From Burkholderiales bacterium (GTDB lineage Bacteria; Pseudomonadota; Gammaproteobacteria; Burkholderiales; Methylophilaceae), in assembly GCA_030827595.1 (NCBI GenBank), contig JAURED010000004.1:48513-82840 (forward strand): 34,328 nucleotides of DNA, in the 5' to 3' direction. The notes under the pieces were generated by a model. That model did no database searches. It had not been told where the DNA came from and saw nothing but the letters and a program-made list of their open reading frames with translations. Positions within the stretch are counted from its first letter, which is position 1; each line of letters starts with the position of its first letter. Shown here in pieces: positions 6,117 through 10,898 of the stretch. The translations under genes and the position numbers were made by a program.

Positions 6117-7382
6117 ATGCCATTAAGTATTCAATTAAAGCTTAAAAACTCTCTCAAATTATCACCCAATATCGAGCAATCGGTAAATCTTCTCAAAGCC
6201 AACGAATTAGAAATTGAATATTTAATTAGCGAGTTTTTATCAAAGAATCCATACTTAGATCTTGATGATTCTGATCGGGTTAAAATTAATTCATTAGCCT
6301 ATTCAATAGATAGTACTCAGGATAGTGAACATGAGCTTTCAATATATGGATATGGACTTAAAGATTATTTAGAAAATAACCTTTTTGATTTAGGCTTGGA
6401 TTATGAAGAGGAATACATTGCCCATCTTCTTATCGATTATATTGATGATAATGGATACTTAACCGAGGACTATGAATTTTTTATCGATGAAGTATCCCCT
6501 GAAATTATTATTAATGAAAATAATTTAAAAACAATTATATTAAAACTTAACCACATTTCATCACCAGGAATTGGTGCTCGTAATTTATCAGAGTGTCTTA
6601 TATTTCAACTTGATCAATTTAAGGCTAGTGCAATATCCATTAATTCAAAAAAAATAGCTGAGCGCTATCTTAATGAGTTAGGAAATAAGAATTTTGAAAA
6701 AATCTCGAAAGAACTTAATATCTCTATTGACGAAGTTTTAAAATGCCATGAACTTATTGTTTCACTCAACCCTAAACCTGGATTAGCTTATGGAAATCAT
6801 AAAGACTCAGAGTTTATTTTTCCAGATATTAAGGTTAGCAAAGAACATGAAGGTTTTAAAATCTCTATTTCAAATAATTATGAATCATTAAAATTAATTG
6901 AAATTTCCAAAAAAGATATTTTAGATTCGGAGGCATACAATCAAGCTAAATGGTTCTTAAAAAATATCAATTATCGAAAAATTAATATCATCAGAGTCGC
7001 TCAATATATATTTAACTATCATAAAAATTTTTTAAATAATAAAAGCTTAGAATATCCATTCACTATAAAAATGGTTGCCAATAAGCTCGAAATTCATGAA
7101 TCAACAGTGAGCAGAATGATTAATAGTAAATATATTGAAACTCCTTTTGGTATTTTTCAAATGAAATATTTTTTTACACATGAAGTCAATAATTTTTCTG
7201 ACAATCTTATAAAAGAAAAGATTAAGGAAATTATTAATTCTGAAAATAAATTAAACCCCCTATCCGACACTAAAATAAATTTAACTCTTCTTAAAGAAAA
7301 GATTACAATTAGTAGAAGAACTATCGCAAAGTATAGAGATCAAATGGGTATCTTACCCGCATCAAAAAGAAAGGTTTGTTAA
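6117..7382 (+). CDS. rpoN: RNA polymerase sigma-54 factor RpoN
   Basis: Sigma-54 directs RNA polymerase to -24/-12 promoters and needs an AAA+ activator to open them. The 421-residue protein has region I at the N-terminus (SIQLKLKNSLKLSP through FLSKNPYLD), a core-binding domain with the usual IDYIDDNGYL stretch, a helix-turn-helix (about 315-340, HESTVSRMI), and the RpoN box ISRRTIAKYR (398-407), which reads the -24 element. It is somewhat shorter than the common 450-490 residues, mainly in the acidic region II. Three bases separate it from lptB, the normal neighbour. No intact sigma-54 activator is encoded in this window (see ntrX). Confidence 0.95.
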   Translation: MPLSIQLKLKNSLKLSPNIEQSVNLLKANELEIEYLISEFLSKNPYLDLDDSDRVKINSLAYSIDSTQDSEHELSIYGYGLKDYLENNLFDLGLDYEEEYIAHLLIDYIDDNGYLTEDYEFFIDEVSPEIIINENNLKTIILKLNHISSPGIGARNLSECLIFQLDQFKASAISINSKKIAERYLNELGNKNFEKISKELNISIDEVLKCHELIVSLNPKPGLAYGNHKDSEFIFPDIKVSKEHEGFKISISNNYESLKLIEISKKDILDSEAYNQAKWFLKNINYRKINIIRVAQYIFNYHKNFLNNKSLEYPFTIKMVANKLEIHESTVSRMINSKYIETPFGIFQMKYFFTHEVNNFSDNLIKEKIKEIINSENKLNPLSDTKINLTLLKEKITISRRTIAKYRDQMGILPASKRKVC

Positions 7383-7384
7383 CA

Positions 7385-7708
7385 ATGGATATTGTCATTA
7401 CTGGTCATAATATTGAAATTACTGAAGCTCTTGAAAATTTAATACACGAAAAATTTAAAAAAATTGCTCGACACTTTGAAAATATTACGGATGTCACTTT
7501 TTTACTCAAAATAGATAAAAATGATCATATTGCCGAATGTAAACTTCATTTAATGCACAATGAAATATTTAGTGAGGCTTCTGGATCTGATATGTATGCA
7601 GTTATAGATGATTTAATGCATAAAGTGGATCGCCAGGTTATCAAGATAAAAGAAAAAACCAAAGACCATCATCAGTCAGAAGGGGTTGAAAGAAAACATA
7701 ATTTTTAA
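7385..7708 (+). CDS. hpf: Ribosome hibernation promoting factor (short HPF)
   Basis: Binds the 30S decoding channel in slow or starved cells and promotes ribosome dimerisation or storage. The 107-residue form starting MDIVITGHNIEITEAL matches the short HPF/YfiA N-terminus, with a later SEASGSDMYAVIDDL resembling the conserved EASAEGxDMYAAID segment. A TTG codon at 7376 could add three residues, but the ATG at 7385 fits the family start and has AAAGG (7370-7374) about ten bases upstream. It follows rpoN by two bases, as in most Proteobacteria. ptsN, expected next, is missing. Confidence 0.93.
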   Translation: MDIVITGHNIEITEALENLIHEKFKKIARHFENITDVTFLLKIDKNDHIAECKLHLMHNEIFSEASGSDMYAVIDDLMHKVDRQVIKIKEKTKDHHQSEGVERKHNF

Positions 7709-7710
7709 CT

Positions 7711-8550
7711 GTGAACTTATTTATCATTACAGGACTATCAGGAGCAGGCAAGACAAATGCCCTGAGGACATTTGAAGATAATAATTTTTATTGTATCGAC
7801 AATCTTCCTGCAACATTGCTAACAAAAGCAATATCAGAATTAGATTCAAATAAAATAAAATCCGTTGCTATTAGTGTAGATAGTCGAAGCTTAAACATAA
7901 CTCAACTTCCAAAAATTCTTAATGATTTAGATAAATCATCAATTCCTTATCACTTGATATTTCTGTCTGCATCTCGGGATCAAATTATAAAAAGATTTAA
8001 TGAATCTCGCCGCAAACATCCATTAATTAAAAATTCTCAAAGTCTTGATGAAGCAATTTTTGAAGACGCAGAAATATTAAGCTTATTATCTGACGACGCG
8101 ATTCACATTGATACAACCAATCTCAATCTCAATGAGCTCAGTGAAAAAATAAATAACCATATTAAAAATCAAGTAAATTTTCATCTTCATTTAATTTCAT
8201 TTGCCTATAAAAAGGGTATTCCACTAGATGTTGATTTTATTTTTGATATCCGAGAACTATCTAATCCATTTTATCAAGAACATTTAAAAAATTTGTCTGG
8301 ACTTGATTCAGCCTTATCTGATTATTTAATAAATCAACCTAATACAAAACAACTTCTTGATGAATTGAATCATTTTATTCAAAATAGAATTCTTAATTTA
8401 AAAAAAATAAGTAGAAAATATTTATCTATTGCTTTTGGTTGTACAGGTGGCAGACACCGATCAGTTTTTGTGACAGAAGAAATCAATAAGCTCATAAATC
8501 AAAGTTTGCAAATTGATATTTCAATTTTTCATAGAGATCTCAATGTTTAA
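7711..8550 (+). CDS. rapZ: RNase adapter protein RapZ (YvcJ family)
   Basis: RapZ is a nucleotide-binding protein; in Escherichia coli it delivers the small RNA GlmZ to RNase E and so controls glucosamine-6-phosphate synthase. The 279-residue product starts at a GTG two bases after hpf and has Walker A GLSGAGKT (8-15) followed by the conserved YCIDNLP. The C-terminal domain contains GCTGGRHRS (243-251) and ends with the conserved HRD. Its last eight bases overlap the EIIA gene. In many Betaproteobacteria ptsN and hprK stand just before rapZ; here they do not. Whether GlmZ-type RNAs exist in this organism is unknown. Confidence 0.95.
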   Translation: MNLFIITGLSGAGKTNALRTFEDNNFYCIDNLPATLLTKAISELDSNKIKSVAISVDSRSLNITQLPKILNDLDKSSIPYHLIFLSASRDQIIKRFNESRRKHPLIKNSQSLDEAIFEDAEILSLLSDDAIHIDTTNLNLNELSEKINNHIKNQVNFHLHLISFAYKKGIPLDVDFIFDIRELSNPFYQEHLKNLSGLDSALSDYLINQPNTKQLLDELNHFIQNRILNLKKISRKYLSIAFGCTGGRHRSVFVTEEINKLINQSLQIDISIFHRDLNV

Positions 8551-8920
8551 GTATTTAATCATTACCCATGGGAGTATTGGTGAATCGCTTCTCGAGTGTG
8601 TTGAAAAAAATTTACAGAAAAGTGTTAATACCATTGACATAATTTCATTAAATCCAACGGATATTAATCAGAGTAAATCAAATTTGAAAGACTACATTTC
8701 TAAACATTCTGATCATGACTTGATAATTATGACTGATTTATATGGAGCTTCATCGAGTAATATTGTAAAGCCCTATACAAAAAATAAAAATATTTACGCA
8801 ATCTCAGGGCTTAACTTACCAATGTTGATGAAAGCGGTTACATTTAAAACAGATGATGTACAAATAATGATTGATGAAATCATCAAATGCGGAAATAAAT
8901 CAATAATTAATTTTTTATGA
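8543..8920 (+). CDS. PTS EIIA component, mannose family
   Basis: Phosphocarrier of the mannose-type PTS IIA family, accepting phosphate from HPr. The ATG at 8543, overlapping the rapZ stop and preceded by AGAGA at 8532-8536, gives 125 residues starting MFKYLIITHG; His9 is the expected phosphorylated residue. A longer frame from 8513 would add ten residues inside rapZ and displace this conserved start. The segment IIMTDLYGASSSN resembles the TDLFGGSPSN motif of the family. It overlaps ptsH by four bases (ATGA). No EIIB, EIIC or EIID is in the window, so it probably works in a regulatory relay rather than in sugar uptake. Confidence 0.88.
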   Translation: MFKYLIITHGSIGESLLECVEKNLQKSVNTIDIISLNPTDINQSKSNLKDYISKHSDHDLIIMTDLYGASSSNIVKPYTKNKNIYAISGLNLPMLMKAVTFKTDDVQIMIDEIIKCGNKSIINFL

Positions 8921-9186
8921 TAAAGAAAGATTTAATAATAAAAAATCAGTTAGGGCTTCATGCACGAGCTTCAAATAAATTGGCGACCCTTTCCTCAAAA
9001 TTCAAATCAAACGTAGAAATTATCTACAATGATGAAAAAGTTGATGCAAAAAATATGATGGATATTCTATTACTATCTATCGGCCTTCATGATACTTTTA
9101 CCCTAAAAATTGAAGGATCAGATGAAAAAAAAGCTTTTGAGTCAATTGCTAAACTTGTAGATAACTTTTTTGGTGAAGGAAAATAA
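8917..9186 (+). CDS. ptsH: Phosphocarrier protein HPr
   Basis: Carries phosphate from enzyme I to EIIA proteins. The 89-residue protein has the active-site segment GLHARAS with His15 and Arg17. The position that HPr kinase phosphorylates in other bacteria (Ser46, in a KSIM context) reads K45-N46-M47-M48, so the target serine is Asn. hprK itself is missing from the neighbourhood. The gene overlaps EIIA by four bases and ptsI by one, forming a tight EIIA-ptsH-ptsI unit. Identity is certain; the regulatory consequence of N46 is an inference. Confidence 0.96.
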   Translation: MIKKDLIIKNQLGLHARASNKLATLSSKFKSNVEIIYNDEKVDAKNMMDILLLSIGLHDTFTLKIEGSDEKKAFESIAKLVDNFFGEGK

Positions 9187-10898
9187 TGTTTATACTATCT
9201 GGCATTCCAGTGAGTCCAGGTATTGCAATTGGACATGCTTATATTCTTGCCCATGCATTAGGAGAAATCGAGCCTTACTTAATTCCAAAAAATAAAGTTA
9301 CTCAAGAAATTAAAAGATTTAATAATTCTGTGAGAAATCTTCATCTTGAGTTAGTGAATTTAAAAAATGAATTAAAAAAAAATAAAATGATTGAATATGG
9401 GTCCTTTATTGACATTCAATTGTCGATACTCAAGGATCCAAAGATTTCAGAGGATCCAAAAAAAATTATTAAGGACACACTTACCAATGCAGAATGGGCC
9501 CTTAAAATTCAAATGGATGAAATTATTAGTAAATTTAATAAGATCAATAATACGTATATAAAAGAAAGGAAAAATGACGTATATCAGGTATGTGAAAACC
9601 TTATTAAATACTTAATCGGGCATCAATCTCATAAAGTTTCCAATGACAGAAATCAAATTATAGTTGCTCATGATATATCTCCATCAGATGCACTAAAATT
9701 TAAAAATACAAATAATTTAGCTTTTATAACAGATATTGGTGGTACAACATCGCATACAGCCATTCTCGCCAAAAGCATAAATATTCCATCCGTTGTTGGG
9801 ATACAAAATGCAAAACAATTAATTAATCATGATGATCTTCTTATTGTGGACGGAGGTCATGGGTGTATTTTAGTAAATCCTCCAAATAATGTTATTGAAG
9901 AATATAAAATCAAGCAAAATTTATATGAAATTGAAAGTAAAAAACTTCTTTCTCTTCAAAATATTCCATCCAGGACAATTGATAAAACGGCTATAAATCT
10001 TTTTGTCAATATTGAGGATACGAATAATCTATCCCCTGTTGTTGAGAATAATACAGAAGGAGTTGGTTTATTTAGAACTGAATTCATATTCATGGATCAG
10101 CATAAAATGCTCGATGAAAATGAACAATTTGTAATTTATAAAAATCTCACGAAATCTTTACCCAATAAAACTTTAATTATAAGAACCTTAGATTCTGGTG
10201 GAGATAAAATCATTGAGCATATGCCACATACTAATCAAAATCCTGCTTTGGGTTTACGAGCAATTCGCTTCTGTTTAGCAGAACCAGACGTTTTTATTAC
10301 CCAAATCAAAGCCTTATTGAGGGCTGCTTATTATGGAAATATACAAATCTTAATTCCCATGTTAAGTTCAACAAACGAGTTAAGGCAAGTTAAATTACTT
10401 ATTCAGCGGGCTAAAGATATTCTTTCATCAGAAAGAAAAAAATATAACCCCAAAACCTTAATTGGCGGGATGATCGAGGTACCTGCGGCTGCAATAGATA
10501 TTGATAGTTTTGCAAATGAATTAGATTTTTTATCCATTGGTACTAATGATTTGATTCAGTACACGCTTGCAGTTGATAGAACTGATGATGCCGTTTCACA
10601 TTTATATGATTCCTCACATCCTGCTTTACTGAAGTTAATTAAAGGAGTTATTGACTCAGGAACTAAAGCTGGAATCGAAGTGTCTCTTTGTGGTGAGATG
10701 GCGGGAGACCCAAGACTAACAAAACTCCTAATTGGATTAGGTCTAAGAAATTTTTCAATGCATCCATCGAGTCTGTTAAAAGTCAAAAAAATGATTTTGG
10801 AGTCAGATGCATCAAAACTAAAATTTAAAGCAAATAAAATTTTACGCTCTCATCAAAAACTAGAAATTGATAACTTAATTAATAACTTAAATGATTAA
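9186..10898 (+). CDS. ptsI: Phosphoenolpyruvate-protein phosphotransferase (PTS enzyme I)
   Basis: Uses PEP to phosphorylate HPr, starting the PTS phosphate chain in the cytoplasm. At 570 residues it has full family length. Visible catalytic parts are GGTTSHTAILAKS with the phosphorylated His190, the PEP-binding NTEGVGLFRTEF with Arg297, GGMIEVP with Glu431 (Mg2+ binding), and VSLCGEMAGD with the general acid Cys502. All match the residues of E. coli enzyme I, so the enzyme should be active. It overlaps the ptsH stop by one base and is followed closely by prlC. Confidence 0.97.
   Translation: MFILSGIPVSPGIAIGHAYILAHALGEIEPYLIPKNKVTQEIKRFNNSVRNLHLELVNLKNELKKNKMIEYGSFIDIQLSILKDPKISEDPKKIIKDTLTNAEWALKIQMDEIISKFNKINNTYIKERKNDVYQVCENLIKYLIGHQSHKVSNDRNQIIVAHDISPSDALKFKNTNNLAFITDIGGTTSHTAILAKSINIPSVVGIQNAKQLINHDDLLIVDGGHGCILVNPPNNVIEEYKIKQNLYEIESKKLLSLQNIPSRTIDKTAINLFVNIEDTNNLSPVVENNTEGVGLFRTEFIFMDQHKMLDENEQFVIYKNLTKSLPNKTLIIRTLDSGGDKIIEHMPHTNQNPALGLRAIRFCLAEPDVFITQIKALLRAAYYGNIQILIPMLSSTNELRQVKLLIQRAKDILSSERKKYNPKTLIGGMIEVPAAAIDIDSFANELDFLSIGTNDLIQYTLAVDRTDDAVSHLYDSSHPALLKLIKGVIDSGTKAGIEVSLCGEMAGDPRLTKLLIGLGLRNFSMHPSSLLKVKKMILESDASKLKFKANKILRSHQKLEIDNLINNLND

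Follow-up and report, generated by a model that had tools for sequence, protein, structure and literature searches.

Helix 2 of HPr is the face on which the kinase HprK docks, and it is also contacted by enzyme I (EI) and EIIA. In Escherichia coli, HPr works without HprK; its helix 2 is devoid of the KSIMGVMM motif and its Ser46 is kept. The HPr encoded in the window, which is the whole stretch of 34,328 nucleotides analysed here, is likewise HprK-free and differs from that of E. coli in carrying Asn46. A soluble PTS chain of HprK, NPr and EIIA, held to be regulatory as is the chain considered here, is described in Brucella and other alphaproteobacteria (PMC2937029). The Brucella HprK is devoid of the N-terminal domain, comparable to that of the sister genus of the window's genus. 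It acts on NPr at the conserved Ser, and this phosphorylation slows the transfer to EIIA (PMC2937029), whereas the kinase and the Ser are both gone in the window. In Ralstonia eutropha, as in the window, the genes run ptsM-ptsH-ptsI and encode a relay that is regulatory and has no transporter (PMC3222305); unlike the window, this species also possesses ptsN. An HprK limited to the C-terminal domain has been reported in alphaproteobacteria and in Coxiella, and most gammaproteobacteria are described as being without hprK (PMC2405797). The function of hprK in Gram-negatives is considered less well studied (PMC6916182).

The window derives from a metagenome-assembled genome (MAG) of 821 kb, which is 67% complete. 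Its EI shares 99% identity with the one encoded by Methylophilaceae bacterium LSUCC0401 (chromosome CP103442.1), placed in the Methylophilaceae by the NCBI taxonomy, and the lineage of the window is taken, by inference from its genome size and low GC, as OM43-type. The genus consists of small-genome, methanol-using bacteria. The streamlining of the Methylophilaceae is well studied, and the PTS of their relatives has been reported by Salcher et al. as missing from OM43 and Methylopumilus strains (PMC6794327); the main text of that paper does not mention the terms hprK, HPr or rpoN. Among the top matches in the open-licence literature, no paper describing an Asn46 HPr or a stepwise loss of this kind was found, nor one on LSUCC0401.

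The operon of the other Methylophilaceae, hprK-rapZ-EIIA(Man)-ptsH-ptsI, has its neighbours and gene order in common with the window, the differences being that hprK is excised and the HPr motif KSIMGVMM is rewritten in the latter. The locus is probably an ordinary regulatory EI-HPr-EIIA(Man) relay that has been stripped of the HprK serine switch as one stage in the dismantling of the PTS.

Organisation of the rpoN-ptsI locus

The genes on the + strand of the window follow the order kdsD, lptC, lptA, lptB, rpoN, hpf, rapZ, EIIA-Man, ptsH, ptsI and prlC, with kdsD, lptC, lptA and prlC labelled by eye and the genes from rpoN to ptsI, together with the ABC domain of lptB, checked by profile; rpoN, hpf, rapZ, the EIIA-Man-like protein, HPr and EI passed the Pfam cut-offs. 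All the features described here lie on the + strand. The sigma-54 gene rpoN (6117..7382, 421 aa; TIGR02395, 308 bits against a cut-off of 277.35) is followed by that of the ribosome hibernation promoting factor hpf (7385..7708, 107 aa from the ATG at 7385; TIGR00741, 84.9 bits against 40.9). The hpf stop codon TAA (7706-7708) is separated from the GTG start of rapZ at 7711 by a junction of 2 nt (7709..7710), exactly as had been noticed in a sequence-only reading of this DNA. RapZ (7711..8550, 279 aa; NF003828, 292.7 bits against 244) carries the Walker A and GCTGGxHRS motifs, which are present in 8/8 RapZ of the genus.

The mannose-family EIIA (8543..8920; PF03610, 52.3 bits against 21.4) has its phosphorylatable His in the sequence ITHG, and this residue is kept in all 19 EIIA of the genus; the protein falls below the cut-off of TIGR00824, the mannose/fructose/sorbose PTS transporter subunit (39.6 bits against 98.35). 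HPr is encoded by ptsH (8917..9186, 89 aa; PF00381, 77.6 bits against 23; TIGR01003, 82.3 against 47.9). It reads GLHAR around the PEP-chain phosphorylation site His15 (codon CAT, 8959..8961), which does not vary among the 147 HPr of the family or the 20 of the genus, and Arg17 is likewise invariant across the genus. EI, the product of ptsI (9186..10898, 570 aa; TIGR01417, 539.1 bits against 341.7), carries the GGTTSHTAI and CGEMA motifs, with the active-site His found in 20/20 EI of the genus. The earlier statement that Asn46 occurs in an HPr with an intact His15, beside an intact EI active site, is therefore borne out by the sequence, and the ITHG of EIIA is intact as well.

A GAF domain in EI is the mark of EI-Ntr. 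Only the PEP-utiliser N, mobile and C domains were matched in the 570 aa of the window EI, with no match to a GAF domain, and the PTS of the window, having neither this domain nor a ptsN-type EIIA, is not a PTS-Ntr by the criteria tested. The absence of ptsN, which the sequence-only reading had counted as part of the change, is real, as PF00359 is not matched in the window genome or anywhere in the genus, but it is not distinctive, since only six of the 187 family genomes have PF00359 and never at the rpoN-ptsI locus. A loss of ptsN as part of the event was rejected for this rarity. Five of the six matches lie in frames of 833-862 aa whose loci also gave an HPr match and look like fused PTS proteins; the sixth (G047) lies in a frame of 474 aa.

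Distribution of hprK in the family and the order

HprK, searched with PF07475, was identified in 147 of the 187 family genomes and in none of the 31 genomes of the window's genus (hereafter g1), six of which are single contigs (G001, G003, G005, G008, G012 and G014). By elimination, the 40 family genomes lacking it comprise all 31 of g1, all six of genus g6 and single misses in G084, G105 and G126. In the order-wide sample, which consisted of genomes at least 90% complete with the exception of the window's own, hprK was found in 381 of 399 genomes, and the 18 without it are three from g1 and 15 from other families. The lone PF07475 match in the window genome (E 0.107, in a search at E<=10) was discarded, its 64-residue translation being read by eye as the P-loop of a Clp-type ATPase. 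The N-terminal HprK domain PF02603 did not exceed the cut-off in any of the 12 g1 genomes tried.

As the window MAG is only 67% complete, it is the relatives that provide the firm evidence for the absence of hprK. This incompleteness is the one point that favours an assembly or binning artefact, in which hprK would exist in the organism and be missing from the MAG, an explanation whose probability is practically negligible: the hpf-rapZ junction is intact at 2 nt, a similarly close junction occurs in the single-contig genomes G001, G003, G005, G008 and G014, and the kinase is missing throughout the genus. Incompleteness of the MAG as the cause is thus refuted both at the locus and in single-contig relatives.

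Between the hpf stop and the rapZ open frame, the spacing is 856-1113 nt in 23 of the 24 loci mapped in genera other than g1, g6 and g15 (540 nt in G051), where hprK occupies about 0.9-1.1 kb in the full-kinase relatives; it is 556-577 nt in seven g15 loci and -13 to 0 nt in the eight loci of the window's subclade. At least two losses of the kinase within the family are implied by a FastTree phylogeny in which g1 forms one clade with g15 as its sister and g6 nests with g19, g18 and g14. These groupings recur in IQ-TREE, though trees of this kind are known to be misled by low, uneven GC, and the IQ-TREE run flagged 12 rows of unusual composition.

The sister genus g15 retains the kinase domain in 15 of its 16 genomes. 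Its HprK is reduced to the C-terminal kinase domain, with frames of 194-209 aa (loci L180-L186, for example L182:4235-4861), and PF02603 was matched in none of the 16 g15 genomes vs 6/6 genomes from g14, g16, g18 and g19. The HPr of g15 keeps the target motif despite this C-domain-only kinase. In the g6 loci (L097, L098 and L099) hprK is gone, hpf and the rapZ frame being 144 and 175 nt apart in the two loci that reach rapZ, and EIIA reads AHE or SHE there, as compared with THG in g1 and g15.

Residue 46 and helix 2 of HPr

The HPr survey comprised 200 sequences from 195 genomes. All the 145 HPr of hprK-carrying family genomes (G107 and G149, with hprK and no HPr match, fall outside this number) have Ser46, encoded by AGY throughout, and Gly49, and 144 of them read KSIMGVMM. 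HPr exceeded the cut-off in 20 of the 31 g1 genomes. Residue 46 is Asn in 16 of these and Ser in four (G006, G016, G017 and G019), residue 49 is Asp in 17 and Glu in three, and residue 51 is Leu in every one, leaving all 20 without Gly49 and Met51. The window HPr reads K45 N46 M47 M48 D49, with AAT as codon 46 (9052..9054) and GAT as codon 49 (9061..9063). The Asn46 codons are AAT or AAC in 16/16 cases, one G-to-A step from AGY.

Among the surveyed HPr, Asn46 is confined to the hprK-less g1. An hprK elsewhere in the genome and an Asn46 HPr in a kinase-carrying relative were both sought as evidence against the sequence-only reading; the first was found in none of the 31 g1 genomes and the second neither in the 145 family HPr nor in 19 HPr domains from 16 hprK-carrying genomes of other families, all of which have Ser46. 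The proposal that serine control was abandoned is thus well supported for the lineage of the window, with Asn46 occurring only in kinase-less genomes. Judged from the sequences, two marks of HprK serine control are missing for the window HPr, namely Ser46 and an hprK in the genus.

It is very unlikely that serine control has instead moved, with another kinase phosphorylating HPr at a different residue. In vitro, the HPr of Xanthomonas campestris receives phosphate from HprK on Ser46 or Ser60 (PMC6916182), and the window HPr has Ser54 where hprK-carrying relatives have Ala, both of which would suit such a shift; against it, HprK itself was not found, Thr occupies position 60 of the window HPr (in its own numbering), and the neighbouring genes scanned by profile include no protein kinase.

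The sequence-only reading had further proposed a joint loss of the kinase and its target residue, which the wider sampling contradicts, given that the four Ser46 proteins of g1 share the loss of Gly49 and Met51 with the rest and that g6 keeps the motif. The three HPr found in the hprK-less g6 all read KSIMGVMM (the other three g6 genomes gave no HPr), as do those of the single-miss genomes G084 and G105 (no HPr in G126). Outside the family, all 11 HPr domains from nine hprK-less genomes have Ser46, six of the 15 hprK-less genomes searched giving no HPr match; in the best-matching HPr of the nine, Ser46 is found in 9/9 and residue 49 is Gly in four, Ser in three and Ala in two. Two of the kinase-less controls, G330 and G441, are doubtful as such, both being 91% complete with a main HPr that keeps KSIMGVMM. 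Kinase loss therefore does not entail the loss of Ser46, and in these data Asn46 is accompanied by kinase loss but kinase loss is insufficient for Asn46. The intact motif of g6 and the Ser46 of the hprK-less genomes in other families count against the explanation preferred here, and the Asn46 cases, all descending from one kinase loss, are not independent counts.

Two further sets of HPr were noted in the survey. Second HPr matches occur in six family genomes, five of them, in fused copies, also having Ser46 and the sixth being the second copy of G125. In the f19 lineage of the order (L294, L299, L301, L307 and L315), genera g42 and g111 resemble g1 in yielding no hprK and in having a drifted motif (KSILAVMT, KSILSVMT, KSILSVMG, KSILGLMT), and differ from it in keeping Ser46 in 5/5 and in having no acid at 49.

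An explanation by mutation bias alone, with Ser AGY turning into Asn AAY in AT-rich streamlined genomes irrespective of the kinase, fits the 16 AAT or AAC codons and the mean locus GC of 30.6% over 26 g1 loci and is nevertheless judged quite improbable. The g15 genomes are also small (1.3-1.4 Mb when complete) and AT-rich, with a locus GC of 34.5% over seven loci; they have retained the kinase domain, Ser46 in 16/16 HPr and the motif in full (KSIMGVMM in 15/16, KSIMGIMM in 1/16). Genome reduction and AT bias by themselves thus did not erode the motif where the kinase is present, and they leave the change of Met51 to Leu and the uniformly acidic residue 49 unexplained.

The changes in g1 are concentrated around helix 2. 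In 147 family HPr, made up of the 145 from hprK-carrying genomes and those of G084 and G105, forty positions reach a conservation of at least 97%, and 12 of them are changed in the majority of g1 sequences: 23, 24, 38, 42, 43, 46, 47, 49, 50, 51, 55 and 58. Nine of the 15 conserved positions within residues 42-58 are changed vs three of the 25 elsewhere (Fisher p 0.003, for a region chosen post hoc and for related sequences), and positions 10, 12, 13, 15, 16, 17, 19, 45 and 48 are unchanged. An AlphaFold2 model of the window HPr, built with 50 relatives (pLDDT 96.5; TM 0.96 to HPr 3lfg), places a helix at 47-53, which would make residue 46 the N-cap and residue 49 the third helical residue (N3). 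N-cap mutations in the HPr of E. coli are reportedly the subject of a study from 1996. Asx and Ser/Thr N-caps have been described, along with the capping box, in which the N-cap side chain interacts with that of N3 (PMC4515027). The replacement of Ser by Asn at 46 would accordingly keep a capping side chain and drop the hydroxyl.

The exclusively acidic residue 49 resembles the outcome of selection more than that of free drift, a further point against the preferred explanation. One reading, considered unlikely, is that of compensation: a relay over-active without HprK would be restrained by the acid at 49, which in a capping box [SN]46-x-x-[DE]49 may stiffen helix 2 or partly mimic the charge of phosphoserine and so restrain phosphotransfer. 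For Ralstonia eutropha, a 2009 study reportedly ascribes an essential role to hprK, which would agree with this. Asp or Glu at 49 occurs in all g1 HPr and in none of the 145 hprK-carrying family HPr, the hprK-less members of other families never have an acid there in their nine best-matching HPr, and the N-cap and N3 positions in the model have the geometry by which the capping box is defined (PMC4515027). However, an acid at N3 commonly stabilises helices and need not mimic phosphoserine, and g6 lost hprK with residues 45-52 unchanged. The changes in helix 2 could also come from co-evolution with EI and EIIA instead.

Gene losses at the locus and their order

The preferred explanation, a regulatory relay that has lost its serine switch, may be set out as a sequence of steps. 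The excision of hprK between hpf and rapZ is clean, as seen in its distribution and in synteny, and would most simply be dated to the ancestor of the genus. Loss of the kinase would have freed helix 2 of HPr, permitting the changes from Gly49 to Asp or Glu and from Met51 to Leu, with the His15 site remaining invariant. The N-cap at residue 46 would still need a good capping residue, and Asn AAY, which lies a single G-to-A transition from Ser AGY, would supply one, removing the phosphorylatable hydroxyl and sparing the cap; in DNA as AT-rich as this (about 31% GC at the locus), such a transition should be common. Ser and Asn appear to have been swapped repeatedly at this position within the genus, and HPr would now carry phosphate on His15 only.

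At least three Ser/Asn changes at residue 46 are required within the genus on two trees, a count compatible with three gains or with gains and reversals. A single origin of Asn46, with the 16 Asn rows held together vs 10 Ser rows, was rejected by the AU test, the group being defined from the trait itself. Since Gly49 and Met51 are changed in all 20 g1 HPr, these changes are older, or more readily fixed, than that of Ser46. The intact HPr motif of g6 suggests that its loss of hprK is more recent.

The relay has itself been retained unevenly, so that the earlier view of the PEP-to-HPr-to-EIIA chain as kept holds for the subclade of the window, where every one of the eight genomes has EI, HPr, EIIA and RapZ, and fails for the genus as a whole, 11/31 genomes yielding neither HPr nor EI (only G010, G012, G013 and G030 of these are at least 90% complete, and the locus was mapped in five). 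Across g1, RapZ (PF22740) was matched in 8/31 genomes, EI in 20/31, rpoN in 24/31 and EIIA-Man in 19/31, the last count being affected by G016, whose locus is split over two contigs, one ending at its HPr. RapZ without hprK is found in these eight g1 genomes and in both g6 loci that reach rapZ, and the remaining 12 g1 genomes with HPr have neither hprK nor rapZ. Other members of the genus would have lost rapZ and, last of all, EIIA, ptsH and ptsI together, the window representing a middle step.

The single contig of G012 (1.34 Mb, 96% complete) is without HPr and EI. In G012, G010, G022 and G030 (L168, L169, L170 and L171), a gap of 28-52 nt separates hpf from the prlC frame and the block from rapZ to ptsI is gone; hpf is likewise beside prlC in G026 with no PTS gene between, across 230 nt with broken frames. 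In G002 and G004 (L155 and L156) the search gave no rpoN, and hpf sits directly beside lptB, at 4 and 32 nt, with EIIA-ptsH-ptsI kept, and the losses of sigma-54 and of the PTS seem independent.

The output of the surviving relay would be the phosphorylation of EIIA-Man only, by analogy with other permease-less PTS (PMC2937029). With no HprK, the Brucella-type brake on transfer would be missing from g1, unless the acid at 49 replaces it. That the serine switch has been hard-wired in this manner, the helix 2 sequence Ser46-I-M-Gly49 becoming a capping box of acidic type, [Asn/Ser]46-x-M-[Asp/Glu]49, which would permanently fix the throughput of the relay and later permit the deletion of rapZ and then of the relay, is an improbable extension.

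The family Methylophilaceae provides a natural series that runs from a full HprK, through a C-domain-only HprK, no kinase with an intact motif, no kinase with a rewritten HPr, and then no rapZ, to no relay. In this series, the HPr residues that the kinase apparently constrains (47 and 49-51, with 46 more loosely so) can be told apart from those constrained by phosphotransfer and folding, and it supplies testable substitutions that go with a kinase-free life. The locus is probably a regulatory circuit dismantled piecewise, and its interest lies in being a natural experiment rather than a new system.
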